Notes under the pieces: generated by a model | Database searches by the model: none | Told to the model about the DNA's origin: nothing | Seen by the model: the letters and a program-made list of their open reading frames with translations, nothing else | Made by a program: the position numbers and the translations under genes | Shown: piece after piece, positions 423 through 39,000 of the stretch | Layout: the number at the start of each line of letters is the position of its first letter | Numbering within the stretch: position 1 is the stretch's first letter | NCBI GenBank assembly: GCA_963669155.1 | Contig: OZ022581.1 | Coordinates: 17,166,027 to 17,230,026, forward strand | DNA: 64,000 bases | Origin: Arbacia lixula | Lineage: Eukaryota > Echinodermata > Echinoidea > Arbacioida > Arbaciidae | Direction: 5' to 3'

Positions 423-725
423 GCAGCAGGCCGCCCTGCGAGACGCCCCAGAGCGACAGGCCGATGGTGAAGGAGTTGATGAGGGTTCCGATGACGGCGA
501 ACATGAGGATGCTACCGATGTTGTTCCAGAAGGCGACCTGGGGCATGAAGTAGCCTGCCTCCATCATGATGGGTGGCAGGAGGTACAGGAAGAACAGGTC
601 CGTGCCCAGCTCAGCGTTGAACGGCGAGCTCCCCCCCAGCAGGAAGAACCCGCCAATGATGAAGCCGATGACGATGAGGAGGCAACTCTCTGGCACATAC
701 TTGGGCAGTGGGGAGAAGTGGAACA
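423..725 (-). CDS. SLC9A: Na+/H+ exchanger (SLC9A/NHE), shared coding exon 2 (partial gene)
   Basis: This exon encodes 101 codons of the transport core of an electroneutral Na+/H+ exchanger. It contains the motifs VPESCLLIV and DLFFLYLLPPI followed by EAGYFMP. These match the first conserved helices of NHE1/2/3-type exchangers, and the FFLYLLPPI helix corresponds to the amiloride-sensitive TM4 region (family knowledge). The acceptor is CAG at 728-726 after a C-run, and the donor GTAAGT begins at 422. Intron phases are 1 at the start and 2 at the end. The first two bases (TG) complete a codon whose first base comes from either upstream first exon, giving Val or Leu. Transcription runs leftward, so the ion-translocation and regulatory exons are outside the window. 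The plasma-membrane NHE clade is well supported; the exact paralogue is not. The exon's 5' edge is embedded in a tandem array of degenerate copies (see 676-1835). Confidence 0.93.
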
Positions 726-1835
726 CTGAGGGGGGGGGGGGGGAGGAGGGGGAAGATTAAGAATGGATGAGTGCAAAGAATGAGCTTATGATTTTTATAT
801 AATAATTTCTACAGTCACGATGAGGCAACTTCCCAGCATTAACTTGGGCAGCAGGGAGAAGTGGAACCCCAGGTGAGGGGGGGGGGAGGTGAGGGGGGGT
901 GGAGAGGGGGAGGGGGGAGGGGGGGATATAATGGATGTGTTAAAAGATTGACCTCATGGTTGTTATACAATAATTTCCACAGTCATGATGAGGCAACTTT
1001 CCAGCATTAACTTGGGCAGCAGGGAGAAGTGGAACCCCAGGTGAGGGGGGGGGGAGGGGAGGGGGGGGGAGGGGATAAAATGTATTAGTAAAAAGATTGA
1101 ACTCATGGTTGTTATATAATACTTTCCACTATCATGATGAGGAAGCACTCTGGCCTCTACTTGGGCAGTGGGGACGAGTGGAATGTTAGGATAGGGGGGA
1201 GATATAGAATGGACGAGTGAAAAGACTGAGGTTGTGATCGTATTGTAATACTTTCCACAGTCACGATGAGGTAGGGAAGAGATAAAGAATAGGAAGGTGA
1301 AAAGATTTAGCTCATGACTATTATATGATAGAAGTTTTGCCAAAATCTGAAATATTTAGTAAAATTTCACTCTGAAATGCCTGGAAAACTTGCTCCTTGG
1401 CTATGACATCCAACTCAGTTGAGAAAGACCTGTCATAAATCATCACTGTCCAACAATTGGTGATATATGGTCAAATATTTCAGTTTATTATGTAAACAAC
1501 ATTTCACATTACACAACAGACAACCAGGAAACTTAATGCCATCTGGCAACTCCAATGTGAAGTCATACACTCCAGCTCAAAGGAATTGGCAGAGGGAAAG
1601 GGAAAGGGAAGAAAGGTAAGGAGCCATAGTTTTAAACCACAGTATATTTTGTCCAGTTCAGCATGAAACATGATGCTTTTTAGGCTAAAGCATCGTGTTT
1701 CCTGCTGAACTGGACAAAATATGCTGCGATTGAGCTCATTGTAGTAAAATAACACTTTACAATGTGATTATGAAAAGTGGAACTCTTGAGGAGGAGATAG
1801 AGCATGGATGAGTGAACGGACTGAGATCATACTTG
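676..1835 (-). repeat. Tandem array of degenerate NHE exon-2-edge units with G-runs
   Basis: The first ~50 nt of exon 2 plus flanking intron recur at about 788-882, 950-1043, 1098-1190 and 1201-1272, with weaker pieces near 1281-1330 and 1765-1835. Each unit has the order G-run, a GAATGGATGAGTG-like stretch, TTTCCACAGTCATGATGAGG, CTTGGGCAGCAGGGAGAAG, GTGGAAC, G-run. Read on the minus strand, units still spell parts of FHFSPLPKYVPESCLLI (for example FHFSLLPKLMLESCL). They lack the exon's AG acceptor and the transport-core sequence, so they look like non-functional pseudo-exons. A palindromic MITE (1566-1745) interrupts the distal end. Confidence 0.8.
1566..1745. mobile_element. PAL-1 palindromic MITE, copy 1 (right arm shortened)
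   Basis: The left arm begins TACACTCCAGCTCAAAGG, followed by GGGAAA repeats and TTTTGTCCAGTTCAGCATG. The central fold is GCTTTTTAGGCTAAAGC. The right arm is deleted internally and ends GAGCTCATTGTAGTA. It is inserted within the NHE exon-edge array. Confidence 0.8.
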
Positions 1836-6327: not shown

Positions 6328-6559
6328 CCACTTTGGAGATGGCTGCAACCATTAGCCATAGCATAACACTGAGGGGCGTGGCCACCTCCGCAAAATTCAG
6401 CCCCACGAGTTGAAACGAGATGGTTTCATTTGAGTGGTAACCCTCGCAGTAATGTTCCTCATTCTCTGCGTAAGTTGCAGCCGTTGCCAAATCCACGAGC
6501 GTGAAAATCAACACTACCACAAAAAGTGAAGTCTTGGAATGTCCCAAACGACCCATCAT
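6328..6559 (-). CDS. SLC9A: Na+/H+ exchanger alternative first coding exon 1A (proximal)
   Basis: Begins with a double ATG (MMGRLG). It has a hydrophobic leader (SLFVVVLIFTLVDLATA, about residues 11-27) that looks like a cleavable signal peptide. A short extracellular stretch follows with one N-glycosylation sequon (NET), then VATPLSVMLWLMVAAISKV, the first transmembrane helix preceding the conserved NHE core. Length is 232 nt (77 codons plus 1), ending at donor GTAAGTG (from 6327) in phase 1. That phase joins in frame to the exon at 423-725 (junction codon GTG, Val) and gives AAISKV-VFHFSPLPK, like the ILVACLAKIGFH region of mammalian NHEs. A second phase-compatible first exon lies 16 kb further upstream. 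I infer two promoters; an incomplete gene duplication is the alternative. Confidence 0.85.
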
Positions 6560-7212
6560 CAGTCGCTCACACTGTCTACACTTTTATAAATCTCTATTTA
6601 CGCACGAGAGCCGTGAGCAATTCCGTGTCCCTCTGGAGTGGAGAGATTGTGCAAATGCAGGAGACTGCCGTCCGTTGAGTGCAAACATGCAATGCCAGTA
6701 CCAGAAGTAGTCATATTATGTTCATTGGTTCTGAGGAAAGCAGAGGAGGCAGAGCTAAGCTTGTCACGTGATTTCACAGAACAAAAGGGCATCCATCAAC
6801 AATCCTGTTGAAATATACACATTTTTGGCATCCTGTTATAACCACGTACTGAGTTAGAAGTTGAGAGGAAATGGTTTATGAAACATTGTCTCACATTCAT
6901 TTGGAGCCAAAACTGAAAGTATGACAACTGATTTTAATAACAGATTAGAAACTGCACGGCCAATATACAATAAGTTATAATAATCACAAAAACTTTTTCA
7001 ATTATGTCTTACATTTTTTTCTTGTTTTAATGGTATGATATATTGGTCAGTTGCTCTAGGCTTCATGAGACTGAGTAGAGATGGGTGTTAGAATCAAAGC
7101 CCTGGGCACAAGATTCAAGAGCATACAATGATATGTGCACCATCTCTCTGTCCCTATTTAGCACAAAACCCTGGATCAGCCCATGAGAACTTTGACCTAC
7201 CTCCATGTGTCT

Positions 7213-7717
7213 TTAAAGGGATAGTTCACCTTGAAAATAAGTTGGTTTCAATAAAAGCAGACACATGAAAGAAACATATTTAGTGAAGGTTTGACGAAAA
7301 ACCCTCAAAGGATAAGAAAGTTATAATGATCTTTTGAAATATCGAGTTTGTGACGTCACATGCAAGGTGCTCTCCCATATGTTGTGTACTACAGAACAAT
7401 TCCATAAATTGCTCTTTCTTTGTTAGCAACTGATTTTTTTTTCACACAGGTATGTGCGTAAAAATGTATTTCTAAGGATGTATCAAATGCAAAGGTAAAA
7501 GGATACATATCTTTATGAGAAAATGCACATTTTCTAAAAAAAATTGTACACAACATATGGGAGAGCACCTCGTACATGACGTCACAAAATCAAAATTATA
7601 ACAGATCAAACTTTCTAATCCTTTGACAAATTTTCATCAAACCTGCACTTGTATGTATCTTTCATGTGTCTCCACTTATTGAAATCAAATTAATTTCAGG
7701 GTAAACTATCCCTTTAA
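7213..7717. mobile_element. TTAA-flanked inverted-repeat MITE, long copy
   Basis: The outer ends TTTAAAGGGATAGTTCACC and GGTAAACTATCCCTTTAA are inverted. An inner inverted pair (GGTGCTCTCCCATATGTTG / CAACATATGGGAGAGCACC) nests inside, with TGACGTCA near each. Same family as 4439-4651, which lacks the inner part. Confidence 0.8.
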
Positions 7718-10166
7718 GTTTGCTCTTGCATTTACATTTTTGCTGATTTTTGCAAAAATTATGGCTAATCATGTGCAGAAGGCAAATTTTTCAGTGTTTG
7801 TAATCGGCAAAGAGAGTATGGTTGATATTCGCCAAAATCTCACTAATTTAGTGTAGAAATGCTGATCCTACCTCAGAAACATGGATATGCTCGTTCAAAG
7901 TCCACCCCTTCAGAGGTTTTAAATGACTCTTAACTCTCTCTAAAAGACCATTCACTTAACTCATATCCCATACAACTTCTCTGTATGGGATTGATGGAGT
8001 TACAGAAATGTTCGTTCCTGATAGTAAGTGCATGTCTGTCATCTTTTCTGTCCATCTATCTGCCATATGCGCAGTCCCATTGATGTGATTTACAGAGGAA
8101 GGAGGACTTGTTTATATCTGGGGGGCATTAACACAGCACTTTCTGTAAATAGAGTTGCTATTAAGATAAAGATGATTGATTCCATCTGAGCATGATTTAT
8201 CTGAACATTCGCATCATGTTTGTAACCTTATTCCTTAATTTCACACAAAACACAAAATAGTGAAGAGTAAAATGAAAGCATAAGAGAAATAATCAGTACA
8301 TAGTCAATGTAGAGTATTCCAAGTTTTACTTCAGAAAGCTAACCTTAACAAGTATTCTTTTGATTGTTTTACATGCCCAACAAAACAATTTGAAAAGAAA
8401 AACCCTACCAATATCGATGCTAATTTGAAATCATTTATTTTATGAATTTAGTAGCTTGCGTCCTGTTAGTCTGCTTACTATGCTGTTGAGTGCATGGACA
8501 CAAGCAAATCTGTTAATAACTATGTCTGGTAACACAGATCCTACTGGCTGGCCTGGCCTTTTAAATATGCAAGTGTGGTGAACAGCCTCTGAGCCTCCCT
8601 CTACCCCCTACACCCCCCCCCCCCCCCCTTCCTCTTCCTCCTCATGATTCCGAGCCATAGTCAATTTTATGATATATCTCAGATAATTAACACCCCTCTC
8701 AGGTATACATGATGAAGCCTATGCAATCTCACAAAATTATATTTTTCATCACTTTGACATTTCAAGGTCTCCCTCAGTCAGGGTGCTTTCAAGTGTCTGA
8801 AAAGTTCTACTGGTACCGGTTTATGATTTGCATCCATTGCTGGTAGTATGTATTAATCTCTCTGGGGATAATGTGCATGCAGGTATATCTAAAATGCAGT
8901 TGCCATTTCCAATTACCTCTCCATGATACAAACCTGATGGTGCGAGAACAAATCACTTTGCTCCAAAATTTATATCACGCTCTAATCCTATCCAATAAAG
9001 CCACGAGATCGAAAATAGCTCAATACTGATTCTTGTGTGTGTGTGTGTGGGGGGGGGGGGGTGCTTAGATTTAAAGTAGAGACCACTTCAGATGCAAATG
9101 TGCAGATTCAATGTGAAATGGGGCAGAATCAATGTCCAGTAGGCAGTACTACAGAAGGCTAGCAAATAAGAAGATTTCTGAAGTACAGCATATATATCTG
9201 GTTAACAGCCATTAATTCAAAAGCATCCATGTAAAATAAGGAATGACAGATATAGTGGTGCATATAGTAATATGAGACATACTATACTCATGATAATGGA
9301 TGTCTGGTCCTCCGTCAATAATACTCATTTGGTTCAGACAACATACATGTAAGGAGCATATAGATTTTATGTGAAAGTTTAATGTGTTATTAGGATAATG
9401 GTTGTTACTCTGATCATTGATTCAGAACTTGTATCTCATCTTCCCACATTACTTTTACATTACGCTGGATTTGACTACTTCTGAAGTACTGTAATACATA
9501 TTTTATGCGAAAGATGGGTATGAGATTATGAGATATAATCATTTAATGATTGTCTAGTTATCAATTCAGAATTTGTGATAATGGTGATCTCATCTTCACA
9601 GATTACGTAACTGCATTACTCTGGCTTAGACAACTTTGGAAGGACACATATTATAAGGGTATATCAGGAATATGCATAATGAGTAATAATTCTAGTAATA
9701 AGCTGATTACTCATAATAATGGACATTTTATCCTTGATCAGACATTAATCGTGTTTAGACCACATATCTCATGTGAAACGGGGTATGATTGTATATTTCT
9801 CATGCATAATAAAGGTTGAAATTTAACTCCTTGTCTGCCAGACTCCACACTTCCCTATGTGAATGGTGAGTATAACTAGTGCAAAAATGCCTCTATGGCA
9901 CAAGGAGCCGACGCAATACACGTTTGAAGTGACTGGTGCATGGGAGACGGGCAATTCACTTTACATGGAGTCATTAATGGGTACCCTGTGCACATAATAA
10001 CCTGATTGTCATGATTACCAAATCGTGTCTGTTTGCCGCATAGCCTCTGCATAATTGATGAATTGTCATAAAAATTAAATGTGCATACAGAACCACTCTA
10101 GCTTGGTTTAAAGATGCAGTGTTCCATCTGCAAAACCTGACACGAATCAATAGTATACCCTGACAA

Positions 10167-10472
10167 TAATGTTCCTGAAACCTAAATAGCAGTCATCGTT
10201 CCTCTAGCCTTTAAAGGGAGAGTGAACAAACAAAAATCATATTGCTCTGTTTGAATTCCCTCCGTTACCTAGCAACCATAGTCTACTTTCACAGACAATC
10301 TACGCAGCATTTTGAGTTATAATGTTCCTGAAACCTAAATAGCAGTCATATCTCCTCTAGCCTTTAAAGGGAGAGTGAACAAACAAAAATCATATTGCTC
10401 TGTTTGAATTCCTTCCGTTACATAGCAACCATAGTCTACTTTCACAGACAATCTTCGTAGCATTTTGAGTTC
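10167..10472. repeat. Recent two-copy tandem duplication, period 153 bp
   Basis: GTTCCTGAAACCTAAATAGC through CAGACAATCT-CG-AGCATTTTGA recurs with only a few differences (units about 10167-10319 and 10320-10472). Each unit includes CTTTAAAGGGAGAGTGAACA. Confidence 0.85.
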
Positions 10473-10940
10473 GGTACAGAGTAAACATGGCACCGTCATC
10501 TGCCTGAGAGCAAACCAAACATGTCTGCTAGTAGAGTGTACATCCTCTTGTCTCTTAGGGGTCGAGGTCAATCTCTTTTATTTCAGAAAGATGGCGGTAT
10601 GTTTTGTGGTCTTGTCAGCCCAACAAATACCAAACATCACAGCTACAGGAGTGAGCCCAGCCAACAAGCATTCGGTGTACTACTCGCTCCAAAGTTTTTG
10701 ACAACCTGGCAAAAATTTGACTCGAATTTTAACAGTCAATACAATTCAATTTTAAATCAGTTTGCAGTTCTATTATAAAAGGAATAGTATTCCCTGCAGT
10801 TTTTTTCTTCCATTGCCATGGTATTTATACAAATTTATTTCTTGACTTCAAAAGGGCTGCACTTCCTTTTATCTACCTCAGAAAATGTCATGTTCAAATA
10901 GCAGCAATGACTGATATCATGCCAGATTGCAGCATGCACA

Positions 10941-11188
10941 TATACTACAGCTCAAAGGAATTGGCATAGGCCATAGGGAAACGGAAAGGGAAAGGGAAGA
11001 AAAGAAAGGAGCCTCAGTTGTAAACCGTTGTATATTTTGTCCAGTTCAGCATGAAACACGAAGCTTTATCCCAAAAAGCATCATGTTTCATGCTGAACAG
11101 GATAAAATATACCGCGGTTAAAAACTGTGGGTCCTTCCCTTTCTTCCCTTTCCCTTTCCCTATGCCAATTCCTTTGAGCTGTTGTGCA
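10941..11188. mobile_element. PAL-1 palindromic MITE, copy 3
   Basis: Full-length foldback. The left end is slightly mutated (TATACTACAGCTC), the right end is GAGCTGTTGTGCA, and the internal GGGAAA tract is expanded. Confidence 0.85.
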
Positions 11189-14100
11189 CTACATAGTGTA
11201 TAGTACCTGCATATTGCAGGTATGTTGCTCACATGGTACTAGTCCTGGGCAGCATCTCATAAAGAGCTGCAATTTATCTTAAATAATCGCTAATCCAATA
11301 CCCTCTCTCTAATGTGCAGTTATGACTGATACAAGTCATAAGTTAAGTGGAGATGAATTGCTACTCTTTACGAGACAGGGCCTTGAACACATATCTTACT
11401 CCATAAACAAATCATATTAAGTTCCCTAATGCTATAATCACACCAAAGCATTTTGCAGCTTCATGCAAGCTGATAAATTGGGAGAGTATGAGAACTCTTT
11501 AACAGCTCTTGCCAAAAAAAAATATGAAACACCAGTCGCTTCAAACTTGAATTAAGAGCGTGTGTACCTGCATAATGTATGGCGATCTATCATCGACTCC
11601 ATAAAAAAAATAACATGAAGTGCATATTGAAGGTAATTTGAGATGAACGCTTATGTCAGATATCAATCAAATGATTACTAGTAGATAAAAGATATTGTAT
11701 TAAAGGAAGGGGAGAGTTGTGGTAAAGACTAAGTACAGGATCTACCGTGTGTCTGAAAAAAAAACTATACACACTTTTGAAATGGCTGCCAAATAAAAAA
11801 AAATACTTGATTCTGGGGAGAATGATTATGGATAGCTTATGGTCTCAACTTTCATCTGACACCAAAACGTCCAAAATAATTCTTGCTTGAATGAACACTG
11901 CTCACTTTTATAAAGGGTATGAAAATTAGGCCACGCAGGAATTAGCTTTCCAATTTTGCAGAGGTTGAATATTGAATATTGAATATTTCAGTATATATTT
12001 ATATTCAGTATAACCAATGGAGTGCCATTCTTCCATGGGTTCCAGTCTTGTTTTCATTTTGGATACTGGGAGAGAATCATATCAAATCAATTATTTAAAA
12101 AAAATACTGAAATTGAACAAAATTTGGACCCTGGTGATGATGGCCGAACACTTACTCCAGGATCATGGCCAATAATAATTATCACTCCTACACCTCACCT
12201 TTTTTATAATGCACAAAATATAAAGAAGATTATACTAGGACTTTTTGTACCACTGCTGTGTGTTTTTAGTACCATACACACAATCTTATGGACAGGCATT
12301 CAATCTCGCAGACAGGAGAAGTTAAAGGGACGGATCAGTTACAGTGTAATGCAAGAATGTGAATGTGAACTTGTGCAGCTACATACCATACATTCTTTTC
12401 AAATCAACTATGAATTCACTTACTGCATTAACGCGAAGGGCTAGTAAAAGTATCATGGTGGAACTCTTCTGCCATTACTGTGGGTGTGGGGGGGTCCTGA
12501 TTTCTTTCCTTTCAATGATTTTATGATTTTACGATCGATTCATGCCTGGTAATCCTGAAATCACACAAGAACAGAAGTACGGAACTCATGGTGATGGCAC
12601 TCCGTTAATGACAGGTCCAGCATATTTACAATCACAGCTACCCTAAAGTTTTACAAAATGACATATCCTTTGAGAGCCAGAAGCACATTCAAGATGAACA
12701 TGTTGAAAGCAAGAAGTGTGCTATTATTCTGGATAAGGTCAACTGCATAATGCACCCTTCTGGTTTTCAAGGGCTTTGCCTTGAACTCTGTCTCAATGAT
12801 TTATGCCATACACGCATAAACTGACTGCACCTCTACTTTCCTTCACATCCGAGGAGCAAAGGTGAGACGATCAAGAGGAACAGATGGGAAGATGGAAACC
12901 ATGAAATAAGTCCTCGATTTACAGACACATTAGGCGACCTTGGAAGATAACAAGCACATGTTGCACCAGCACAACGAGTTAGAGAGCTCACATTGAAATA
13001 AACCCTGCATCAGGCATAGCAGCACCACAACATACGTATGGTCTCCAAAAGAGAACTTCGGCACTTGATATTCCTCACAGGCACTATGGTACTTAGAATT
13101 CAACCATGATAAATCAAGTTAAAATTCCACTACAAGCATATACACACAACTTCACAGCAAGTATCCCACCAACTCAAATGCTAAAGGGACCTGGGAGCTC
13201 CACTTGATCAAGCCGACCGCTACCATTGCACACAACACAGCGCTCAGAGCCTCAGAGGGGGGGATGAACTATAGGAGAGCAGACGAAAGCATCATCCTGT
13301 GAAAGTGTGATGAAGTCAAGTGCATGTTGCCGTCTGAATTCTGCAAGCGTACTACATGTACATGTTAATCAGCTGTGCCACTCCTCTGTGGGATAGATTA
13401 ATCACTCAACGCAGTGCACGCTCCACAAGTGTAGGCTCTCTGAATTATGTAGTCTGCTAATGTACAGCCAGCACAGTATAACACTCAACCACGTTAATCA
13501 CTGTTTATAACTGTTGGGTGTGTTCACTTACAAACTACATGTGTTTGCACATGTGTATATTCCTCCACCAACGTTGCATTACAGAATAGTCTGCTACAGC
13601 GCTATCACAACACACAAACTGTGATTGATGTACCAGCACAGCACATACAGCCAGTTTTGATGATCACAATCATATGAGGTACGTAAAGGTGTGTTTTTGT
13701 GTTTGCACTAATAGATTACTCCTCTAATGCTTCACGATAGGATCTCTCAGTATAGTCTGCTAGTGGTATAACCACACACACAAACTGGGATTAATTATCA
13801 TATTTTAGAGGTGCAGACGGAGTGTGTGTAAATGACCTCCCAAGCCCTCCTATACCCCTGCTGTGAAGCCAATGACTCAATCAGATTGCCTGTGTAATGC
13901 AAACTGTAGCATGTTCTGGGAATCTGGAGGCACCTTTCTCAAGTGTCTGCTGACGCATCCGGGTCTGCAGTGGTGCTAATGTCTCACCCGCATTTGAATG
14001 TGCCTCACAGACAGGGAGCAGAGTGTTATTGATATTAGGGGGAAGAAGAGGAGAGGGGGAATTGAGAGCTGGGGCGAAAAAGGGGAGGAAACAGGTAGAT

Positions 14101-14630
14101 GAGAAAGGAGGAGGAAAAGGGGAGGGAAAAGAAAAACACACAAACAAGCAGATAATTATGCAGGAGACATACTGTGTAGTGAGAAATAGGCAGAGAAACG
14201 TACAGAGAAATGGGCAGAAAGGAGGAAAGGGAGGAGTGGAAGAAAGGGAAGAGTGGAGGAACAAGAGATGGAAACAGATTGGAAGAGCTCTTGACAGACA
14301 GGCAGCCAGAGAGCAGAAATAGAAGTTTGCAGAGAGATACATGCAGAGAGAAAGAGGCAGGGGAAGGACCAGTGAAAGGGGCACAAAAGGAGACCAATAT
14401 ATACACAGTATGCAATGTGATCAGAGACAGACAGAAACACAATACATGAAGCAGAAACATAGATAGCGACAGAGTGTGTGGAGATAGAGAGACAGAGGAT
14501 TGGGAGGGACAGGCAGCGACAGATGTGAAGAGACATTTTAGAAAGAGTAGTGAGAAAAAGAAGGGATAATAAGAAGGCAGAGAAAGAGGCAGAAATGCGA
14601 AGAAAAGACAGATACACAGATGCCCTTTTT

Positions 14631-15360
14631 ATTTTGGGTTTTCTTAGCCCCGTACTATCTTTAGCCCTGTACTTTCCAGGGCCAAATACATATAATCCCA
14701 TTTTTATCAGTGGAGCTAGCCCACTTAGTTTAAAACCAATAGGTGCGTCTTCATTAGCCCGATCAGACGAAATAGCGAGCTATTTTTCTGATCCGGGGAA
14801 CTAGCCTGAAGTTGCAATTGCGTCTTCATTAGCTCGAAACTCGGGATAAGTAAGCTCGAGCTCGGGTTGCATAAATTATCCCAAGTTTCGCACATACCAG
14901 CAGTGTGCGACAGGAATAGGCCATGACGCATGGCTTCGGTTGTGAGCTCGCATTCACGCACGTGTAAAAAACTATTACGTAAACAATGCCTCGTGGGCGC
15001 TGATGCATCCCGGGATCGAGAAATTTTCAGGCTAATGAAGACGCTCCGAGCTAGCTCGAGCTAGTTCGCGAACCAGCTCGAGCTAGATCAATCTAGCCCA
15101 AGATTTCTTGGGAAATTTTCTCGACCAAATAGCTCGCTATTTTGCCTGATCTGGCTAATGAAGACGCAAATAGCTAGCTAGTTCGTGATCTGGCTAGCTA
15201 ACCCGATCAGAACAAGCTCGCTATTTTGCCCAGCTCGAGCTAATGAAGACGCACCTAATGTGAACAGAAAGTGGTCCAAACTTAACCCTGTTCTATAGGT
15301 AGGGCTAAGGGGGGAGGGGGTGGGTCTTTTGCCAGATAAATTGTTGCCAGTGTAAAAAAG
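14631..15360. repeat. TTAGCCC/GGGCTAA-rich repeat interrupted by an inserted element
   Basis: CTTAGCCCCGTACTATC and TTTAGCCCTGTAC on the left, and GGTAGGGCTAAGGGG on the right, flank the element at 14741-15256. They resemble the repeats at 18460-18850. The flanks read as one older repeat split by a younger insertion. Confidence 0.55.
14741..15256. mobile_element. GCGTCTTCATTAGC-ended MITE, copy 1
   Basis: Perfect outer inverted repeat AGGTGCGTCTTCATTAGC / GCTAATGAAGACGCACCT. AAT directly flanks both ends, a possible 3 bp target duplication that would fit PIF/Harbinger (inference). The interior is rich in AGCTCGAGCTAG-type palindromes and internal inverted copies of the end motif. About 516 bp, no ORF of note. 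Confidence 0.82.
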
Positions 15361-15454
15361 GTCAGAGTGGCAGACAGACAAGAGTAGAGATAAAGAGACA
15401 GAGGTGGGGCTGGAGAGAAGGAGATAAAAACAGGTGTGTAGAGACATACAGAAA

Positions 15455-15941
15455 CGGTGCGTCTTCATTAGCCCGATCAGACGAAATAGCGAGCTATTTT
15501 CCTGATCCGGGGAACTAGCCTGAAGTTGCAATCGCATCTTCATTAGCTCGAAACTCGGGATACGTAAGCTCGAGCTCGGGCTGCATAAATTATCCCGAGT
15601 TTCGCACATACCAGCAGGGTGCGACGTGAATAGGCCATGACCGCATGGCTTCGGTTGTGAGCTCGCATTCATGCACATGTAAAAACCTATTATGTTAACA
15701 ATGCCTTGTGGGCGCTGATGCATGCCGGGATCGAGAAATTTTCAGGCTAATGAAGACGCTCCGAGCTAGCTCCATCTAGCCCAAGATTTCTTGGGAAATT
15801 TTCTCGATCAAATAGCTCGCTATTTTGCCTGATCTGGCTAATAAGAAGATGCAAATAGCTAGCTATTTTGTGATCTGGCTAGCTAACCCGATCAGAACAA
15901 GCTCGCTATTTCGCCCACATCGGGCTAATGAAGACGCCCCT
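15455..15941. mobile_element. GCGTCTTCATTAGC-ended MITE, copy 2
   Basis: Second, slightly shorter copy of the 14741-15256 element, about 200 bp away in the same orientation, with a small internal deletion in the AGCTCGAGCTAG region. The ends are GGTGCGTCTTCATTAGC and GCTAATGAAGACGCCCC. Confidence 0.82.
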
Positions 15942-16517
15942 AAAGAGTAGAGAGAAAGAAAAGTACTAGAATAAGGAGGAAACAAACAAGGAGAGAAAGG
16001 TAGAGGCAGAGGCAGAAACAGAAAGAGGTCAGAGACAGAGACAGACAGATGAACAGAATGAGAGGCAGAAATATGGCCTGACCAAACAAGCAATTGATAT
16101 CTACAAAAGTCATATAAGATTTAAAGTCACTGTTTAGTTCCTACATTCTACAGGAAGTTACCATAGTAATTATAGAACTTAGCATTTTAGCCAGGCTGCA
16201 AATGCGTTACACCACCTAGATATCAACGTTAAGTGGATGGTAATAACAAATGGTGTGATATGAAATAAAAACACAAAGATAATGAAAAAAATACAAAGTC
16301 TGTACTGGTATTATAATATACATACCAAACCTCTAACAGCAACAACTCTAGCACTTCCATGCCATTCTACCATGACCTTGGTAACAACTTTGTTTGATTT
16401 TTGGATAAAACTCCATTCAAAATGACAAATATGATGGGAATTAAATAAACAAACTAGACCCAGTGATGACAGCAGAATAGTTCTGCTGTGATTACAGCCA
16501 GCAATCATCACTTCTTT

Positions 16518-16863
16518 TAACAAGGTGTTTCGCGAATCACGAGTCTCGCCTGATTTCGCAATTGATAAACAGTGCTAAGTTCTTTTTTCAAATATTTGAA
16601 ATGATGTCGAGATGACCTATGACCTCACCATCCTCATCAACACACGTGGTATTACCCAAGGATCATTTGTACCAAGTGTCATCACAATTGATGCAGAAAT
16701 AAAGAAACGAGAGCAAGTTAAACAAAAACTTTGAGAAACATAATGCACACAGCCTCATATCATGTGACCGTTTAACCCAATTTTTGTAAGACCAACAGAC
16801 CAATAGACCAAGAAGAAAAGTGATTACTAGGTCTCTGCCAAACTTTGTTCAGGCAAGACAAAA
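16518..16863. repeat. Unclassified ~335 bp interspersed repeat, copy 2
   Basis: Same family as 3025-3356: ACAAGGTG edge, GATTTCGCAATTGATAAACAG, ACCCAAGGATCATTTG, AGAAATAAAGAAACGAG, and a CAGGCAAGACAAAAA edge. It has about 40 bp of extra sequence in the middle and a shorter CAACAGAC tandem. Confidence 0.7.
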
Positions 16864-17364
16864 AGTGACAATACAGGGGCATGTGTATGTGGTGAAGTGT
16901 TTGTCAATCTGTCAATATTGACAGTCAGCACCTTGTGCAAATTGAATACACAGACTATGAGCTCATACCTTGTTATCTTGACTTTTGGTTGTACATTATT
17001 ATAAGCACACGTCTATACCCTGTCTTAACAGATCAAATCACCGGGTAGCCTCCGGAGAACCTCCGGAGAACAATTTACACACTGTCTATAAAGAAACTTG
17101 ACACTAGACAACCTCCAGGACGACTCTAGCAGTATCAGACTCAATGATTCAGACTGCCTGACTGACTCAAGGAAATATTAAGGATTTAATTCAGCAGTAT
17201 TTACCAATTACCAATCTCTAATTTTGTGGGGCAATCTGCCCAAAATGTGTAGCAAATTGCACCGCCACACGAGGCAAATCACTTGATGTAACAATGGACC
17301 CTACTAGAGTCCGTGCTGTGACTGACTTACCGGCCTTAGCTACTCCTCTAGCCTCTCTCTTTCT

Positions 17365-17640
17365 TCAAGTGCCATCTGCTCTCAGCAGTTTGGCTACCAT
17401 GGACCGCCACATTTCCCGCTCATGTGCCCTTCTGACACATTCTCTGTAACTCAGCCTCATCCACTCCTTAATATCATCCCTCCACTGCGTATGTGGATGC
17501 CCTCGTCCTCTCTTCCAATCAAACCTTTCTTCCAACAGCACTCTTGAAAACCACTCTTTCTTATAATATGCCCAAAGTATTTGCATTTTCTTTCTTCAAT
17601 CATATTGAGTAACTGTTTCTTAGTCTTCATCATTTGTAAG
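17365..17640 (-). mobile_element. LINE (RTE-like) 3' end, degraded
   Basis: The minus strand encodes the C-terminus of an endonuclease/reverse transcriptase polyprotein: KCKYFGHII in one frame, then RGRGHPHTQWRDDIKEWM followed by a CVRRAHEREMWR motif. This is the typical tail of metazoan non-LTR elements (family knowledge). The two parts are in different frames, so the copy is frameshifted as well as 5'-truncated. No polymerase core is present. Confidence 0.7.
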
Positions 17641-17674
17641 ATTTCTTTGTTTGTTTTTTGTTGTGTACATGATA

Positions 17675-17904
17675 TACACTACAGCTCAAAGGAATTGGCA
17701 TAGAGAAAGGGAAAGGGAAGAAAGGGAAGAAGCAGCAGTTTTAAACCGCGGTATATTTTGTCCAGTTCAGCATGAAACATGATGCTTCTTCTAAAGGCTA
17801 AAGCATCATGTTTCATGCTGAACTGGACAAAATATACCAGGGTTTAAAACTGCGGCTTCTTCCCTTCCCCTTTCCCTCTGCCAATTCCTTTGAGCGGGAG
17901 TGTA
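17675..17904. mobile_element. PAL-1 palindromic MITE, copy 4
   Basis: Complete foldback from TACACTACAGCTC to GAGCGGGAGTGTA with TA at both ends. It lies just beyond the LINE fragment. Confidence 0.87.
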
Positions 17905-18459
17905 TGTAATATTCTTCCATATAACCACACCTCAAATGCTTCACTTTTTCTTCTGTTGAGATTTGTAAGTGTCCTCCAGCCTGGTGTCATGAAATTAATA
18001 CTCTAAACTAAATTTTGCATGTTATTCTATGAATTAATTTTTTTCTTTTCACAGGGACTCTTTCTTGAATTTTGGGGGCTAACTCACCCTGAGCCCCAGT
18101 GTAAGTTTTAAACTTGGACTAACATGGGTCATAGGGGACCTGCAGGTACAAATTTGGGCATTTCATCCATGTTTTTCTCTGAAACCATGACAGTGGACAT
18201 AGGACCTTCTGACATGAAGCTCTTCCTACTTCGGACTTGTTTCCTTTTGAACAGGAAGGTCTCACACGCTGGCTTCCTCTCATCGTGTGCAATGGGAAAT
18301 GAACAAGCACAACGCTGCATGAAATCTGAAACATGCTGCTAATAGAGGCTACTGATTTATTAATGAGTAAGGTAGCTTCCTGATTAAAAGGGCGTATACA
18401 ATGTACAGGTATTCCACAGTCCACACTGTGCTTCCATTTAGTATACTAATATTTTCAGA

Positions 18460-18850
18460 AAAAAATCATGGCTCACCCCGCAATTGCAGGGCCAACCCAA
18501 ATAGTCCGGGGCTAAAAGTGCCAGTGAGAACAGAAACGAGAAATAGCACGGGGCTAAGAAAATGCGGTGTCAGCTCACAAGGACGAGACGCCAAGAACAA
18601 TCAGATAATGCCCTACGGGCGAGTGACCTTGATGCGAAGTGGTAAAGAGCCCATGTGCAAGACGTACATTCATAAATATTCATAAGCTGCCGAGAAAGTC
18701 TGGGGCTAACGATTGCAAATGGAAACAGCGTGGAATTCCTTAGTCGGGTTAAAGAAATAGTACAGGGCTAAGAAATGCCAGTGTGAAAAGCTTCAAAAAA
18801 TAGTCCTGGGCTAAGGATAGTACGGGGCTAAGAGAACACAATGAGAAAAG
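18460..18850. repeat. GGGGCTAA-rich repeat cluster
   Basis: GGGGCTAA, GGGCTAAG and TAGTACGGGGCTAAG recur about six times with intervening GTGAGAACAGAAA-like sequence. This looks like one or two old, rearranged MITEs of the family also seen around 14,631-15,360. Confidence 0.5.
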
Positions 18851-19174
18851 GGTGTAAGGCCTACACTGTACTTTGATTTCAGGAGCTTGCTTTTTTATGA
18901 ACCTGGTGAGGCAGAGCAGTTTTGTTCTTGAGAGAACAGTGAAAAAAGGGTTTTCTAACTGTTGCTGATTTTCTACCAAAGAAATTTCTCACAACATATT
19001 AAACACTTTTTGATGTATTACTTTAGCTTTCAAAATCATTGCACATCAATAGTTTGACTTCTAACTTTGATTCACAAATGAATGCATGTTAAATGTAATA
19101 GTTCAGCTTTTGATTTCTAGAGATTATCACCTGCCTCCTTCGGAAAACAAATTCTACAAACTAGAACCTACATG

Positions 19175-19403
19175 TACACTTCAGCTCAAACGAATTGGCA
19201 TAGGGAAAGGGAAGAAAGGGAAGGAGCCGCAGTTTAAAACAGCGGCATATTTTGTCCAGTTCAGCATGTAACATGATGCTTTAGCCTAAAGAGCATTATG
19301 TTTCATGCTGAACTCGACAAAATATACCGCGGTTCATAACTGCAGCTCTTTCCCTTTCTTCCCTTTCCCTTTCCCTATGCCAATTCCTTTGAGTTGTAGT
19401 GTA
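19175..19403. mobile_element. PAL-1 palindromic MITE, copy 5
   Basis: Complete foldback from TACACTTCAGCTC to GAGTTGTAGTGTA, with a shorter GGGAAA tract on the left arm. Confidence 0.87.
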
Positions 19404-20537
19404 GGCTAGACCTTTGATTTGACTACCATACCCTTCTCTTCGACTTAGATGTAAGTAACAAAATTCCTAGACATAAAAAATGTACATATACTTCCAATGT
19501 GCTGTTTAAGCTCAACACATACTTGTACCAGGCTACCAGCAAGTTTTGTTATGTGATTAGCACAACACTCTCTGAACTACCCGTCTCATTTTTCTTTCAT
19601 TTTTGTCTATTGTAAAAAGAGTTGAATAACAGGTAATTCATTGTGGCCTGTCTGTGGTCTAAAGCATTCAGCAAACACTGAATAGAACTACAGTATCTCT
19701 CTCATTTCCTGTTGAAATGTAAAATCATGGTTAACAAACCGGATGCCAACACCGCAGTTTAAACCATTAAATTGTCACACGATTGGGAAGAATAAGCTAG
19801 TTGACAAGCACAAACTCTTTTCAGTTTGTCAGTCAGTTAGTATACCTTTCAATAAGCCATTCTCATCCGTATTCAGAACTTTCCCATAACTGCATTAGTA
19901 ATGCATTATCACATTCACCTGCATCTAGTGATTCAATTTCAATGGGTAGAATGCACTCTGGATCTATTACTTGTTGCAAATCAGACAAACCTCAGACAAG
20001 CTTCTAAAGGTGTTACCGATAAAAACATATTGTTTGAAAGACATTGCAAACATAATAAAAATGGTGCTTCGAGATACAATTTGCAAGTCATGTGGTAGTT
20101 TCATCTTATATTGAAGTTACATACAAATAAGTCTATGGCCGCGGGCTAGAATTTGCAAGGTGTAGGTATTGAGAATAGAATAGAGCACACTATCCGGGTT
20201 TTTCCCCTCCTTTGGGGTCAGCAAATGAAACACATCTTCATGCACTTGTGCATGGATTTTGAGAGACATTGCACCAGGCATTGTGTGAATGGATTTGGAC
20301 AAAATAGAGTTGATGCCATTGATAACATTTCACACAATGCTGCATGGGATTAATATTATTACTAGACTGTCTGAAGTATTCATAGCACCCATGAATTTCA
20401 TGAATTCACAACTTCCTTATAATATTTGTTTTATGTGTTAGGCATACCCCACCCTGTATATGAATGAAAGACAAGTCAGAACAATTCTTGCAACTAGAAA
20501 GTAGGCCAGAAAGCCCTTTCACTAAAAATTCCAAATG

Positions 20538-20772
20538 TACACTCCAGCTCAAAGGAATTGGCATAGGGAAAGGGAAAGGGAAGAAAGGGAAGGAGCTGCA
20601 GTTTTAAACCTTGGTATATTTTGTCCAGTTCAGCATGAAACACGATGCTTTAGCCTAAAAAGCATCATATTTCATGCTGAATTGGACAAAATATATCGCG
20701 GTTTAAAACTGCGGGTCCTTCTCTTTCTTCCCTCTCCCTTTACCTGTGCCAATTCCTTTGATCTGTAGTGTA
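20538..20772. mobile_element. PAL-1 palindromic MITE, copy 6
   Basis: Complete foldback from TACACTCCAGCTC to GATCTGTAGTGTA. It directly precedes the 123 bp tandem array. Confidence 0.87.
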
Positions 20773-20795
20773 TCTCTTTGGTCAATGATCAGAGT

Positions 20796-21164
20796 TTTAT
20801 TTTTCTATAAGGAGGTGGAATCATGGTTAGGACACTGCTGCAAAATAATCAAGGTGGATCCAGGAGGATAAACATTTAGACAAAAGCAAAATCTTCAAAA
20901 CAGGCTAATGTGTAATGTGTTATTTTTCTATAAGGAGGTGGAATCATGGTTAGGAGACTGCTGCAAAATAATCAAGGTGGATCCAGGGGGATAAACCTCT
21001 AGACAAAAGCAAAATCTTCAAAACAGGCTAATGTGTAATGTGTTATTTTTCTATAAGGAGGTGGAATCATGGTTAGGACGCTGCTGCAAAATAATCAAGG
21101 TGGATCCAGGGGGATAAACCTTTAGACAAAAGCAAAATCTTCAAAACAGGATAATGTGTAAAGA
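20796..21164. repeat. Three-copy tandem repeat, period 123 bp
   Basis: TTATTTTTCTATAAGGAGG, GAATCATGGTTAGGA and GGTGGATCCAGG recur at exact 123 bp spacing (anchor cytosine at 20805, 20928 and 21051). The units differ by only a handful of bases, so the expansion is recent. 123 is divisible by 3, but no sustained meaningful frame was seen. Confidence 0.92.
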
Positions 21165-22259
21165 GGTAGAAAGAAGGAATATCACGGAAGACTGTTGACA
21201 AATCTGAAAAAAAAAAATCAATACAAAATTGGAATAGAAATCGTGAAATACTGCATTTCAAAATTGTTATAAATTGTCCATGTACTTACTTACCTCCGTC
21301 ATGACATAATAATCACATCTCTTACTAGAAGATTGCATGAAGTGAAAAATTGATTTTTGGTGTGCAGGATGTTTAAATATCTATTCTAAGCCCGTACACT
21401 TTTACACTCACCACTTATTAATTCTGTCATAATAGATTCAACAATTTACACAGATATATGCTGAGATGTGTCATTCTTATTATAAGATATAAATATAAGT
21501 AATTGAAAAGGCAAATGGAGATAACATTATAAAGTCATTATTAGTTTTAACTTTAATTTTCCACTTGACAAAAAAAAAGAACTTAGACTGTGAGAGGTAA
21601 ACTACCGAAAAAAACAAAATTCAAAGATTAATTTTGATTTTTAATGTCACTGTATTACATTTTGGGTTGCAAAAAACGTATAGGCTATTTCTACCACCAA
21701 ACCTGCTACACTCACATCCACACAATGATCACTTTGGTTTCATTCCTTCTACCACTTCTCTATCCTGACGATCAGGCAATGAACTTCCACACATTGAGCC
21801 ACGGCTCATTTTAGAGCTAACCTCTCCGAAATAATCCTCAGAGCCACTCACTCTGTCACTCTCACTTTCTCACTCGCTCAATGAGCAGCTCTTTTCAGGG
21901 TTATTCCGAGAGGAATGATGTAAGACGATATCCTCACTCTCAAGCTTGCTCACTCTCTCCTATCAATTGGTTTCCTTTTCTTTCTCACTCGCTTTCTGAG
22001 CCCAAAAGAATAAAAATTTAAGTCATCTTAATGACTACCACATGGTGCATCATGAAAAATGTTCTTAAATTTGTGAACTATTCCACGCAATGCAATAGGA
22101 GACAACGGTAAGACTACCTTTGTAATTTCATTAACCTAAAATACCAAAGACCGGCAAAGTACATCGAAGTCTCAAGTGATGATTGTGGTGTCCAGCTCTT
22201 AGTATAGTACTAGTAGTGTTAATTGAGTAAATATCAAAACGTGTTGTGGGTAAACTTAC

Positions 22260-22524
22260 AAACTTTAGCGATGGCAGCAACGATAAGCCAGATTGAAATC
22301 GCCAGTGGAGTGGCCACTTCATGAAAATTCACGGTCAGAATCTCAAATTCTTCTGGCTCCGAATGGCTATCGTTCGCGAGTACGAGTTCACACCCTTCTT
22401 CAATGACGTCTCCCCCGGGCCCGACGGCCCACGATGCAGGCAGTCCCATGAGGAGTGACAGGGAAACCAGCAGGAACCACTTTCCCCAACTTCGTGGCAG
22501 GCGTGACATATCAATCCCCATCAT
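22260..22524 (-). CDS. SLC9A: Na+/H+ exchanger alternative first coding exon 1B (distal)
   Basis: Also starts with a double ATG codon pair (MMGIDM), then a basic n-region and a hydrophobic leader (WFLLVSLSLLMGLPASWA), a probable signal peptide. A short acidic extracellular segment follows with the sequon NDS and FEILTVNFHE, then VATPLAISIWLIVAAIAKV as the first membrane helix. The last 25 or so residues clearly match exon 1A (shared F-EVATPL, WL-VAAI-KV) while the leader and ectodomain differ. It is 265 nt (88 codons plus 1) and ends in phase 1 at donor GTAAGTTT (from 22259), the same phase as exon 1A, so both can splice to 423-725 (junction codon TTG, Leu). The sequence just upstream (22,525-22,910) is fairly GC-rich and could hold a promoter (inference). 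Confidence 0.82.
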
Positions 22525-27514: not shown

Positions 27515-30500
27515 ATGGAGGTCTCATCAGATAACACATTCTTGTATTTTGGGTTTGGTAGCAATTTACTGAAGGAGAGAATTCAGTTGCAAAACCCATC
27601 AGCAGTTTTTGTGGATGCAGCAGAATTAAAGGTAGATCTAGAGGTTTAACTTTGAGTCTTCACCTTACTCTTGACGTACAGGGGCGGTATTCCGAAAATC
27701 CACAGAGATAAAAATTTTATCTCCCCTAAGATACAATGTCCTTAAAATATTTTATCTTTGGTATTCCGAAAAATATTTTAGGAAGATTTTAACCAATATT
27801 AATGAGCGCATGCCCTGCGCCCCTATCCCAGAGACAGCCAGTAATAAACGTCCTTTCATGTCTTTTGCATACATTAACACCATCAAGCTGATGGTGTGAT
27901 GTCATGAAACTGAAAGGGACATTGCGCATCAATGTCTATCAGCGCGCATTATTGCATTTGATGCGCCCATGTGCAAAAAGTTTAATGCGCAAATTACTTT
28001 TGCACGTAATGCTATGGGCCTAGGCGCGTACGTCTGGAGATAAAATTGCTTGGGAGCAGTTTTATCTTTTATCCTAACTTTTTTTCCTAAGACCGTTTCA
28101 GAATACCGATTTAGCTCATTTGCATAAAATTTTTATCTCGGAGGCTCATTTACATAAAAATTTTATCTCTAGCTCATTTGAATAAAAATTTTATCTTTGA
28201 TTGTAAGTTGGCTTTTCGGAATACCAAAAGATAAAATTTTTCCTAAGTCCCTGAGATACAATAAAATTTTTCCTAAGTTCGTTTTCGGAATGCCCCCCCA
28301 GATCTTATGACTGTTATTTTACATCATATAAATTATTAGACCGAAAAATCAGTCTGTGTAGGACGTTGGATCCGCTGAGATTGCATCTGGCTCCTCTGAA
28401 CGCCCTATCTATCTATTCGGGGGGTATGTCCAAAAATGTCATTTCGATTAAAGAATGCCCTGAATGAGACGGTTATTCCTGCACACATTGTATTACTGGA
28501 CACTATCCTAATTCTGGACGTGCATAGTAACACGTACTAAAGCAATTTTGTAAGCGTACGACTCCGCAGTTCAATTCCACAGTCACATTGCAGAAATGAG
28601 GCGAAAAAAGTTTTACCTTTTTTATCTCTCAAATGGCGAAAAAATGCTTACAATTTCATATTGCATACCTTTGTATTAATAATTGATGAATTTTCTGACG
28701 AAAAAATGAGCATGGTTTGCCGAATTTGTAATCTTTCATCCGCTTCGACGTGCAGTGTAATGTGGGTATATGTGGTGGTTCTAGTGCACAGTTTACGTAC
28801 TGTGAGTATGTGCGACAGTCGTTGATTTTCCAATCATACAATCGAAAGCGATCGTGTCCGGAATCATGTAATTTGTCACACGCAAAAATAATTGTTTTCG
28901 TAGAGGGGTACACGGGCAGTGCGATGCAAAGAAAATGGTTCGTAAATATCAAATAATTTTACCATATTTATAATTTTCATAATATTTGGAATAGCTAGTG
29001 CAAAATTTTCTTGAATTTATTTGATCTAATTATCCATTTTAAAGCACTGAAATAAAGGTGTCCGGCAATACAATATACTACCATACATGTAATGTGAGTT
29101 GAATTATTTACTTGAATTATTAGCCATTAAAATTTGGCCAATTCTAATCGCAAACGTTGTGCTCACTAGTAGTAGTAATGATACAGTATAAATGTGCAAG
29201 CCATATCCTGGGATTCCTTATAAAAACCCACAATTGCCTTGGTGTTTCGCTGTTAGAATTATTATTATTATTTGTAATTTTGTTTTTATTTGTACTTGTA
29301 TTTATATGGAAGTTATCTTGAAGTACCTGTATGTTGCTTGTTGGAGAATGTTCAATATGGCCCCTGTGATAAAATTGAAAACAACAGAGGAAAGATAGGG
29401 TAAATGATATATCAATGCACAAAGTATTTTTTTTATAATATTCTAACTGAACAAAGTACACACCAGCTCAAAGGAATTGGCATAGGGAAAGGGAAGAAAG
29501 GGGGGGAGCCACAGTTTTAAACTGTGGTATATTTTGTCCAGTTCAGCATGAAACATAATGCTTTTTAGGCTAAAGCATCATGTTTCATGCTGAACTGGAC
29601 AAAATATACCAAGGTTTAAAACTGCGGCTCCTTCCCTTCTTCCCTTTCCCTTTCCCTTTCCTTATGCCGATTCCTTTGAGCTGTAGTGTACGTCTACTTG
29701 AATCTTTCATTGATGTCAATTTAATTCATACAATTAATGCATGCTGGGTTGCGGCTGCTCTACCAGGACTACCGGCTCTGCTTTGGTGGGCAGTCTCGCG
29801 GCTGGATGAGCGATCGGTGGCATGGTGGTGTAGCTTCGGTCAAGCCGAGTCTTGGGGACTCTGTGTGGGGAGTGGTGTGGAGACTGAAGGCTGAGGACCT
29901 TGCTAGCTTGGATGAGTGAGTACTGTGGTTCATCTTCCCTTTCCTTCTTTCCTTGAGAAAGGCACTTTTGTCAGGATTGAGATAGTATATGCCAGGTGTG
30001 TGATGACGTGTAGCACAGGTCTAACATGGTTGTAGTCCATCTTGAGATGTGCAGGTAAATGCAAATATCAGCATTAGATAAAGACTCTTGCCCAGACATG
30101 TACACTACAGCTCAAAGGAATTGGCATCAGGTAAAGGGAAAGGGAAGGAACCCGGTTTTGAACCGGGATATATTTTGTCCAGTTCAGCATTCATGAAACA
30201 CAATGCTTTAGCCTTAAAAGCATTATGTTTCATGCTGAACTGGACAAAATATACCACGGTTCAAATCTGTGGTTCTTACCCTTTCTTCCCTTTCCCATTC
30301 CCTATGCCAATTCCTTTGAGCTGGAGTGTATTCTAGTTTCCAGCCACATCTTATCGGCCTTGACTGCAATGAATCAAGTAATTGTGCGATCCCCAAGAAT
30401 TGCCAGCCCAGAGAAAATACTCAGAATATTTTCTGAGCATACTCTGATATTTTTTCTCTTTTCACAGGAGCTCTATTGTTGTCCACAGGGAGTCAGTAGA

Positions 30501-30811
30501 AACATAATTTGTTGACTGCTTTGTGTTTTCTCTCATCTTCCTTCCCCACATTCAGTCAAGAAGGCGAGGGCATCGTATACCAAAGAATTAAAGTTGCGGT
30601 CAAGTCGAGCACCGGCACCGTCTTCACTTGCTGGACATATTCCATGCTGAACTTTGTAGAGAGTGTGCCATCCCCGCAATACCTTGAAATAATCCGCCGG
30701 GGCGGGGAGCAGAACAGCCTGCCCGCAGACTACCAGAAGTGGCTGGCAGCCATCAAAGACAACGGCTATTCAGGGGAAATTGAGATTATGAACAACTTCA
30801 TCAAGCAGTAA
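27515..30811 (+). CDS. GGCT: Gamma-glutamylcyclotransferase paralogue 1 (three exons)
   Basis: GGCT is a cytosolic enzyme that converts gamma-glutamyl amino acids or dipeptides to 5-oxoproline plus the free amino acid (family knowledge). Exons are 27515-27631, 29767-29915 and 30556-30811 (intron phases 0 and 2), giving 173 aa; human GGCT has 188. Visible landmarks are FLYFGFGSNLLKERIQ at the N-terminus (the substrate-binding YGSN loop), WHGGVAS, VWGVVWRL, LDDQEGEG containing the glutamate equivalent to human catalytic Glu98, and VPSPQYLEIIRRG near the C-terminus. The loop Tyr is Phe here (GFGSN instead of AYGSN), unlike the second copy. The start ATG at 27515 gives the expected family N-terminus. 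Intron 1 holds a 618 bp MITE; intron 2 holds a PAL-1 copy. Both it and the downstream paralogue look intact. Confidence 0.92.
27681..28298. mobile_element. 618 bp TIR element (GGTATTCCGAAAA ends) in GGCT-1 intron 1
   Basis: GGGGCGGTATTCCGAAAA is mirrored by TTTTCGGAATGCCCCCC. The subterminal motif AAAATTTTATCT / AGATAAAATTTT is repeated many times. At 28113-28199 three ~29 bp units (AGCTCATTTGCATAAA type) form a tandem. No transposase frame. Confidence 0.78.
29457..29690. mobile_element. PAL-1 palindromic MITE, copy 7 (GGCT-1 intron 1)
   Basis: Complete foldback from TACACACCAGCTC to GAGCTGTAGTGTA. It ends 76 bp before the acceptor exon of GGCT-1 exon 2, so it is transcribed in the pre-mRNA. 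Confidence 0.88.
30101..30330. mobile_element. PAL-1 palindromic MITE, copy 8 (GGCT-1 intron 2)
   Basis: Complete foldback from TACACTACAGCTC to GAGCTGGAGTGTA. The left GGGAAA tract is shortened, and ATTC is duplicated in the left arm. Confidence 0.88.
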
Positions 30812-36012: not shown

Positions 36013-39000
36013 ATGGCTAGAGCGGTGTGCAAAACCTTCCTGTACTTTGCCTATGGCAGCAACATGCTGCAGAAACGCATACACATCAACAATCCTTCTG
36101 CTGAGCTTTTGGGACCAGCATTACTGAAGGTATGTATACAAACAGAACTTTAAGCATACTGAGGCTGCTATACATGGGGCAGTATCTAAACACAAGGCAC
36201 TGGGACCGAGAAAAGATCCCCAATGAATAACATCGAGAAGTGTGAAAACTGACTGCTGTGTAGTATTTTTTGTGTGAAGTGCATCGATTGATCAATGTTT
36301 CCGCTTGAGTTTCTCATCTTTGGGGAGGTTGAATTTGGGCTTTCATAAAATGCAACTATACTCCAGGAATTGTGGTTGATGTCATTGTTGATATCAACCA
36401 CAATTCCTGGAATATAGCTGCGTTTTATGAAAGCCGAAATTCCAGGAATTGTGGTTGATATCATTATTGATATCAATCCTTAAACGCAGCTATATTCCAG
36501 GAATTGTGGTTGATATCATTGTTGATTTGTGCAGCTATAAAGATGTGCTACCCCCATTGTTTATCTGTATTCCCCATCCTTCTGTAGTGTTCTTCACTTC
36601 ATCGAGTACAGACATGCATGACAGTACTTGGTATTAACCTGAGCATAAGTGAAAGCCTGGTTAAGACAGTATAGAATTTGATAAAAGCTACCGGTAAACA
36701 AATACCGCCAGCTCCAGGGAAATCAATACAATACATGTAAATACAATAGACTGAGCGTGAAATGCGAAGTTTGCGTGGCGCCGAGTGTGCACTATTGCGA
36801 AGTATGTGTGAAAAGAGTTAAAAGTTTATTCCTAGCCTGTCTATTGTCCTAACAGCAGATTGTACAGGAGTCGCGCTGCTTTGTATCTGAGTGGAAATAA
36901 GCCAGCCCGCATATATGCAGGCTCAGCAGAGAATGGGTTAAATGCAATAAAAACAAAGTGCAGTGTGGTGTGCAGGCACTGCAAAAGCTGTGCATGGCCG
37001 GTTGCCACTGATGCGGTTAATATGTGCCCTCACAAATATATTACATACTCTGCAAGGTTACCTAAATACACAATGCATGTTTGTTTCAAAGAAGGATTCA
37101 GTGCCCCAAATTCTCAAGGTCTGCAGTGGTACCTAATGTTGAAATTTTCCCTGATTAAAGCTCTTGATCATATGAATTTCAAATCATATTCAAAACAAAT
37201 TTGGGTCTGTCCAGAGATTTGTTATGAATTCATATACATTTTTATCTGTATGGATTTATCTAATGGATTAAACCCCTTTTGAAAACATCGTCTTTGTATG
37301 TAAGATATATAAACTGAGTGTGTGAAAAAGTTTTGGAAAATGTAATATTTCTGATGCTGGAATTGATTTTGTCTATTTCATTTTGCATATTCCATTTAGG
37401 GGAAAGTTGTCCTATAAAGCAAACTGCAGCAACGTCCAGATACCTCATGCAATCCTGTCTGCTTCCAGTCTCATACACTAGTACACTAGACCAGAATCTA
37501 CACTCCAGCTCAAAGGAATTGGCAGAGGGAAAGGGAAAGGGAAGGAGCCACGGTTTTAAACCGCGTCCAGTCCAGCATGAAACATGATGGTTTTTAGGCT
37601 AAAACATCATGCTTCATGCTGAACTGGACAAAATATACCGTGGTTTCAAACTGCGGCTCCTTCCCTTTCTTCCCTTTCCCTTTCCCTATGTCAATTCCTT
37701 TGAGCTGTGGTGTACATGACAGCAAACCATATCCCAATGTGGTTGCGCAGTGCACTATGGGACGACCTTCCTTGCTTTATGGTAAGGAGAATTTCACATC
37801 ATAGCCGTCTCTTTATCTTGATCTCCATTGCTCCTGCATGCAGGGTTACAGGCTGTGCTATTACTGCGCAGTGGGCACGACTGAGGAAGACTATAACTAC
37901 TGGAGGGGGGCGCCTGCTACCATTGAGGTGGAACCTGGGGGGGAGATCTGGGGTGTGGTCTGGAAGCTGAACCTGTCCGACCAGGCGCATCTAGACAGGT
38001 ATGTAACAACCACACAATTCTCTTTTATACCGGTAGCTCATTTCATCATCTTTAATTAACCCTTATCGCGCCCCCTTTTGTTCAAGACTGATCCCTGCTT
38101 ATGCCACTCAAAGTCTCAGTCCGAGATGTCTTCAGTGTATGCAACTTTTCAGACTTTGATTTCACCCGTTTTTATTTCATGACACTATTCATACATGTTC
38201 TCTACATATGTTTTTATTTCTGAGGGTTCTAAAAAGTGTCTAAACCTAAATTCAAAATGTGATATTGAGGTGAGGTACCTGGTAAATCATAAAACATGTA
38301 AAAAAACAAATTGTATGTAAGATTGAGTTTCAGGATAGCTGATTGCCTATATCCTTTACATACAGGCTTACTAGTAGTGTGGGGTGGGTGGATAAGTCCA
38401 TTGTAGTGAAAAAGAGGGGATAGTGTCAGATAATAATGGTACAACTTGCTTATGCTGAACTCTTTAAGATGAATTTAAAAAAAAAAGATAAAACTCAAAT
38501 AACTTTTACTCAACTATAGTTTTGGGGTTACTTTTAGGGACCCCCTCCCCCACTATTCCATTTGAATTAAGTCATGCTTCTACGTAAATGTTGATAGAGT
38601 TATCTTGTTCCTTTAGTTTTAGTGAACCTTGCTAATTGATTTGAATGCAGTTCCATTCTTCCATATTATATTTTAAAGAGTGAAAAATTCTACTACTCCC
38701 CTTTTCTCTAATTTTGTGGTAAAAACATGTGATTCAACTAAATAAGACTATAATTTTGTTCTTGACAATACAGATACAATTTAACTTTGCTGTGAAATGT
38801 CCTGGAATTAAACATATTTGCTTGTGCATGTTTTTCCATTTTGATAGCCAAGAAGAGGGCTACAGATCGTTGGATGTGACTGTCCAGACCCAGGATAGGA
38901 CAGAGAGGATGTGCCGCACCTACCAAATCCTCAACAAAGAGCCACAAGAGAGCCTGCCCTCACCACATTACATGAAAGTAATCATAGAGGGCGCCAAACA

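Follow-up and report, generated by a model that had tools for sequence, protein, structure and literature searches.

In the part of PMC3567025 available here, SLC4A10 (NBCn2) is described as having two promoters that give two extreme N-termini with tissue-specific use. Substitution of tandem duplicated exons is recurrent in ion transport genes, SLC12A1 being an example in the accessible portion of PMC9741552. For echinoderms, excerpts of the sources report that starfish oocytes need NHE3 for their pH rise when meiosis resumes (PMC6829648), that NHE3 of Patiria pectinifera is EF514911.1 (PMC5408280), and that in the sea urchin larva the stomach cells express NHE3 (PMC4458843). No title among the matches listed concerned alternative first exons of an SLC9 exchanger, in a collection that covers subscription journals thinly; PMC2788392 (motifs in human NHE1) contains 'alternative promoter' once.

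The window, the whole 64,000-nucleotide stretch of Arbacia lixula DNA analysed here, lies at C6:17166027-17230026 of a 607-Mb, 590-contig genome. It holds the first exons of an Na+/H+ exchanger gene that runs beyond the window edge, and positions past that edge are given as negative numbers. The locus is explained best, and we think quite probably correctly, as one SLC9A1-5 exchanger gene with two alternative first exons (1A and 1B) that would have arisen by an old duplication and both been kept by selection.

The class of the gene was assigned from its predicted product. Beyond exon 2, exon edges were chosen by eye as GT-AG sites preserving the frame and the exchanger sequence, all on the (-) strand: exon 3 at -387..-550, exon 4 at -1396..-1652, exon 5 at -5928..-6166, exon 6 at -6834..-7036, exon 7 at -7350..-7439, exon 8 at -9092..-9162, and exon 9 at -9896..-10031 (3' end provisional). 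Since the edges of exons 3-9 were hand-picked, their fit is no independent evidence. The joined products were open over 565 residues (1A) and 576 residues (1B), up to the used part of exon 9. The 1B form scored 602 bits against TIGR00840 (cut-off 251), and exon 1 plus exon 2 of either form scored 56 bits against PF00999 (cut-off 26). Among solved structures (PDB chains), the product of exon 2 onward scored best against human NHE3 (7x2u, 490 bits) and next against human NHE1 (7dsx, 472 bits). FGESLLND and SAVDPVAV, transport motifs of plasma-membrane Na+/H+ exchangers, were both located in exon 3. By its TIGR00840 score and its best relatives, the gene body is of SLC9A1-5 type and NHE3-like, with a predicted intact membrane domain.

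The coding part of exon 1A occupies 6559..6328 (-) (232 nt, 77 codons + 1 base) and that of exon 1B 22524..22260 (-) (265 nt, 88 codons + 1 base), with a spacing of 16 kb. Each ends in phase 1 at a donor that has GTAAGT in common with the other (G|GTAAGTG in 1A and T|GTAAGTTT in 1B). Exon 2 (the LLPPI region; 725..423 (-)) fits both, resuming in phase 1 after acceptor CCCCTCAG and ending at its own GTAAGT donor. Both joins were stop-free, with junction residues KVVFHF via 1A and KVLFHF via 1B. Each first exon begins with MMG and carries a leader, one N-x-S/T sequon (NET in the outer tail of 1A, NDS in that of 1B), one Cys in its outer tail, and the first-helix tail VATPL...WL.VAAI.KV. The leaders have a net charge of +2 ahead of a hydrophobic core whose best 12-residue Kyte-Doolittle mean was 3.07 in 1A and 2.48 in 1B. 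With leader ends assumed, the outer tails are acidic (net -6 in 1A, -10 in 1B). An in-frame TAG begins 9 bases 5' of the first ATG in 1B. The two exons thus have their own starts and enter the same second exon in phase, as alternative first exons do. The anatomy given in the sequence-only reading (MMG, leader, sequon, helix motif, phase 1 and the fit to exon 2) was all present where that reading had placed it.

The likeness of the two exons was measured by alignment and by shuffling. With 1A as query, 1B was found at E 9e-10 in 144 kb, and the alignment covered 83 columns at 36% identity, with a full score reached by none of 2000 shuffles; chance likeness of the helix tails was ruled out on these grounds. 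The earlier claim that the last 25 residues are kept stands as to conservation of the helix tail; the figure itself is 16 identical residues out of 23. Outside the tail, 16 of 54 aligned residues were identical, a marginal score (reached by 81 of 2000 shuffles), and the outer tails alone could not be aligned beyond chance (589/2000). Over the 77 aligned codons as a whole, the synonymous difference was 0.75 and the protein-changing difference 0.42; for the tail (the last 23 codons) the values were pS 0.63 and pN 0.22. A recent duplication was ruled out by the synonymous value of 0.75 over 77 codons. Against human NHE1 and NHE3, each tail matched at 7-8 of 23 residues, and NHE1 matched NHE3 at 12 of 23. 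For the tail, the part compared, and with a distant outgroup, 1A and 1B are therefore closer to each other than to the human exchangers, as a duplicated pair would be. Either the duplication followed the split from the vertebrate line, or a common exchanger body held both helices alike. An origin by exon duplication, as previously proposed, is supported by the likeness of 1A and 1B. The first exon may have been duplicated long ago, or a tandem gene copy may have lost its remainder.

Neutral decay was simulated with 5000 copies per exon at 0.3, 0.65 and 1.34 substitutions per site, the depth being taken from the 17 synonymous sites of the tail. Without indels, 375 copies of 1A and 271 of 1B were still open at 0.3, 44 and 22 at 0.65, and 6 and 3 at 1.34. 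When indels were added at a tenth of the substitution rate, each of them being scored as a break, the open copies fell to 0 for 1A and 1 for 1B at 0.3, and to zero for both exons at the two greater depths. Neutral tails retaining at least 16 of 23 residues numbered 2/5000 at 0.65 and 0/5000 at 1.34. Long joint neutral decay of the two exons was ruled out by the simulation. Synonymous sites near saturation beside a kept helix argue that 1A and 1B were constrained for most of their history, and the sequence comparison supports a real, old and well-kept first-exon pair that would have survived long under constraint. Of the divergence under selection claimed before, constraint on the helix holds and nothing further, the synonymous sites of the outer tails being saturated. 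The most durable alternative, which we consider unlikely, is that a sole first exon (1A or 1B) is in use and that its counterpart was silenced too recently to show damage. Such an exon would still have an open frame, as in the indel-free simulation at 0.3 substitutions per site, where 271 (1B) to 375 (1A) of the 5000 copies were open; yet starts, frames and donors are intact in both exons, and near-saturated synonymous change together with the kept helix calls for long constraint on both.

A second gene copy was sought in 144 kb by tblastn (E 0.05), the queries being the peptides of ten exons (1A, 1B and 2 to 9). Each exon was found at its own place, and 1A and 1B were each other's second match. 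No second exon 2 was found in the 144 kb save three broken fragments of its first 23-24 codons, exon 3 was single, and nothing at this threshold matched exons 1-9 in the interval between 1A and 1B; no further match of any kind was reported. A laxer run over the same 144 kb (E 100) admitted chance-level matches too, the strongest among the matches listed being at E 0.024. This was a weak match to 1B (plus strand, outside the window, with a stop inside) and was set down to chance, being absent at E 0.05 with longer words. In a whole-genome search with 1B plus exon 2 as query, 5/5 candidates were scored and three places were reported, namely exon 2, 1B and 1A; among the 5 candidates scored, no second exon-2 place was reported genome-wide. 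A diverged second copy or a third first exon may escape this search, as it scores few best candidates and 1A itself reached only E 0.001.

In a Pfam search of the genome, ten matches were obtained from 19 candidates, four of them in the exchanger gene under study. The others comprised one at C6:28.16 Mb, with exons that we take to be NHE8-like, four on C17 in an SLC9C1-like gene (131 bits over 79 residues against PDB chains labelled 'sperm-specific sodium proton exchanger'), and one on C15 with an internal stop. This search, too, scores the best candidates, so that a diverged relative may escape it.

These searches bear on the case named beforehand as refuting, in which 1B would be the first exon of a separate, tandem second exchanger gene downstream whose other exons are missing from the assembly or scrambled in it. 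Tandem duplication does occur here, a neighbouring AIG2_2 family gene being present twice; but no second intact exon 2 was met in the 144 kb or among the candidate-limited genome results, where exon 2 has one place, and the interval between 1A and 1B lacks any match to exons 1-9 at E 0.05. A separate gene for 1B is accordingly disfavoured, and we regard it as very improbable.

The three fragments are decayed tandem copies at 798..1186 (-), inside intron 1, and carry about 70 bases of exon 2 each. Together with the 5' end of exon 2 and its pyrimidine tract, which form the first unit, they make four units over 674-1214 with start-to-start distances of 143, 168 and 149 bases. AG is present at the acceptor place in none of the three (CTCAG is changed to CACCTGGG twice and to CCTAACA once), and they are therefore not expected to compete as false splice sites.

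Several other features of the window were recorded. A 123-base unit is present in three tandem copies (96% matches) at 20797-21161, in the intron between 1B and 1A. A repeat end, CTCAAAGGAATTGGCATAGGGAAAGGG with at most 3 mismatches, is present at 19 sites from 1576 to 59203 (chance expectation 0). Sixteen of these face each other in eight pairs at distances of 140-188 bases, a layout resembling that of a small palindromic transposon. Open frames at 30500-30811 and 38723-39094 (+) matched AIG2_2 (gamma-glutamylcyclotransferase-like) at Pfam E 1.4e-13 and 8.3e-16. Each seems to be the last exon of a gene, the two genes being in tandem and pointing away from 1B; their likely first exons, near 27.5 and 36.0 kb, had no Pfam match when searched alone. 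An open frame at 52401-52607 (-) contains CMDCLDRTN, presumably the motif of SAC-type phosphoinositide phosphatases, and gave no Pfam match for the piece alone.

Upstream of 1A and 1B, no clear promoter signs were found. CpG o/e over the 1000 upstream bases was 0.41 for 1A and 0.67 for 1B (window, 0.48). The element TATAAAAG before 1A was not accepted as a promoter, since no more than 29 bases separate its start from the ATG. Also upstream of 1A is an acceptor-like CTCTCCACTCCAG; this, and the finding of no promoter for either exon, would suit a transcript carrying 1A and 1B in one mRNA, or extra untranslated exons upstream, and hence no simple first-exon choice, but each exon has its own ATG and leader, and joining them would be expected to give an internal second leader or a broken frame, which makes this a highly improbable account.

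With 1A and 1B as alternative first exons of one gene, transcription starting before 1B would splice past 1A into exon 2, and transcription starting before 1A would use 1A. Two start regions 16 kb apart would feed one exon 2, and the exchanger body would be identical; separate promoters for 1A and 1B are probable. Whichever of 1A and 1B is used would supply the signal sequence, the first helix and the short, sequon-bearing outer tail; once the putative leader has been removed, the two exchangers would be distinguished by their outer face and a single membrane helix. For these predicted forms we infer promoter choice, splicing, leader cleavage, glycosylation and use by tissue or stage. It is conceivable, and offered as a tentative suggestion that we hold to be rather doubtful, that the two forms are two working exchangers, for example one of eggs or oocytes and one of somatic epithelia, that differ in surface partners, pairing or pH set-point. 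Were that so, an SLC9 exchanger would be retuned by a membrane-helix swap through promoter choice. Na+/H+ exchange at the resumption of meiosis is studied with the oocytes and eggs of echinoderms as a model. Should the gene have two leaders and outer tails, expression, antibody or knock-down work on one first exon would miss the other product. The pair also offers a ready test of the roles of the outer tail and first helix in the exchanger family.

The arrangement is of a familiar kind, and among the matches listed no report of it in the SLC9 family was found. The resemblance to human NHE3 (490 bits) and NHE1 (472 bits) lies in the membrane domain encoded by exon 2 and those after it, and is low in the first-helix tail, where only 7-8 of 23 residues are identical; we know of no human alternative first exon of the 1A/1B kind. 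Starfish NHE3 is likewise an echinoderm exchanger, compared here by its name and its role in the oocyte. In SLC4A10 the alternative piece is the cytoplasmic N-terminus, whereas 1A and 1B would swap the leader, outer tail and first helix. The two loci are alike in being single acid-base transporter genes in which the transport body is shared and the N-termini vary, as far as the available part of PMC3567025 describes SLC4A10. With SLC12A1, going by the accessible portion of PMC9741552, the locus has in common that homologous exons replace each other; in SLC12A1 this is done by mutually exclusive splicing, whereas for 1A and 1B it would be a choice of first exon, presumably made by the promoter.
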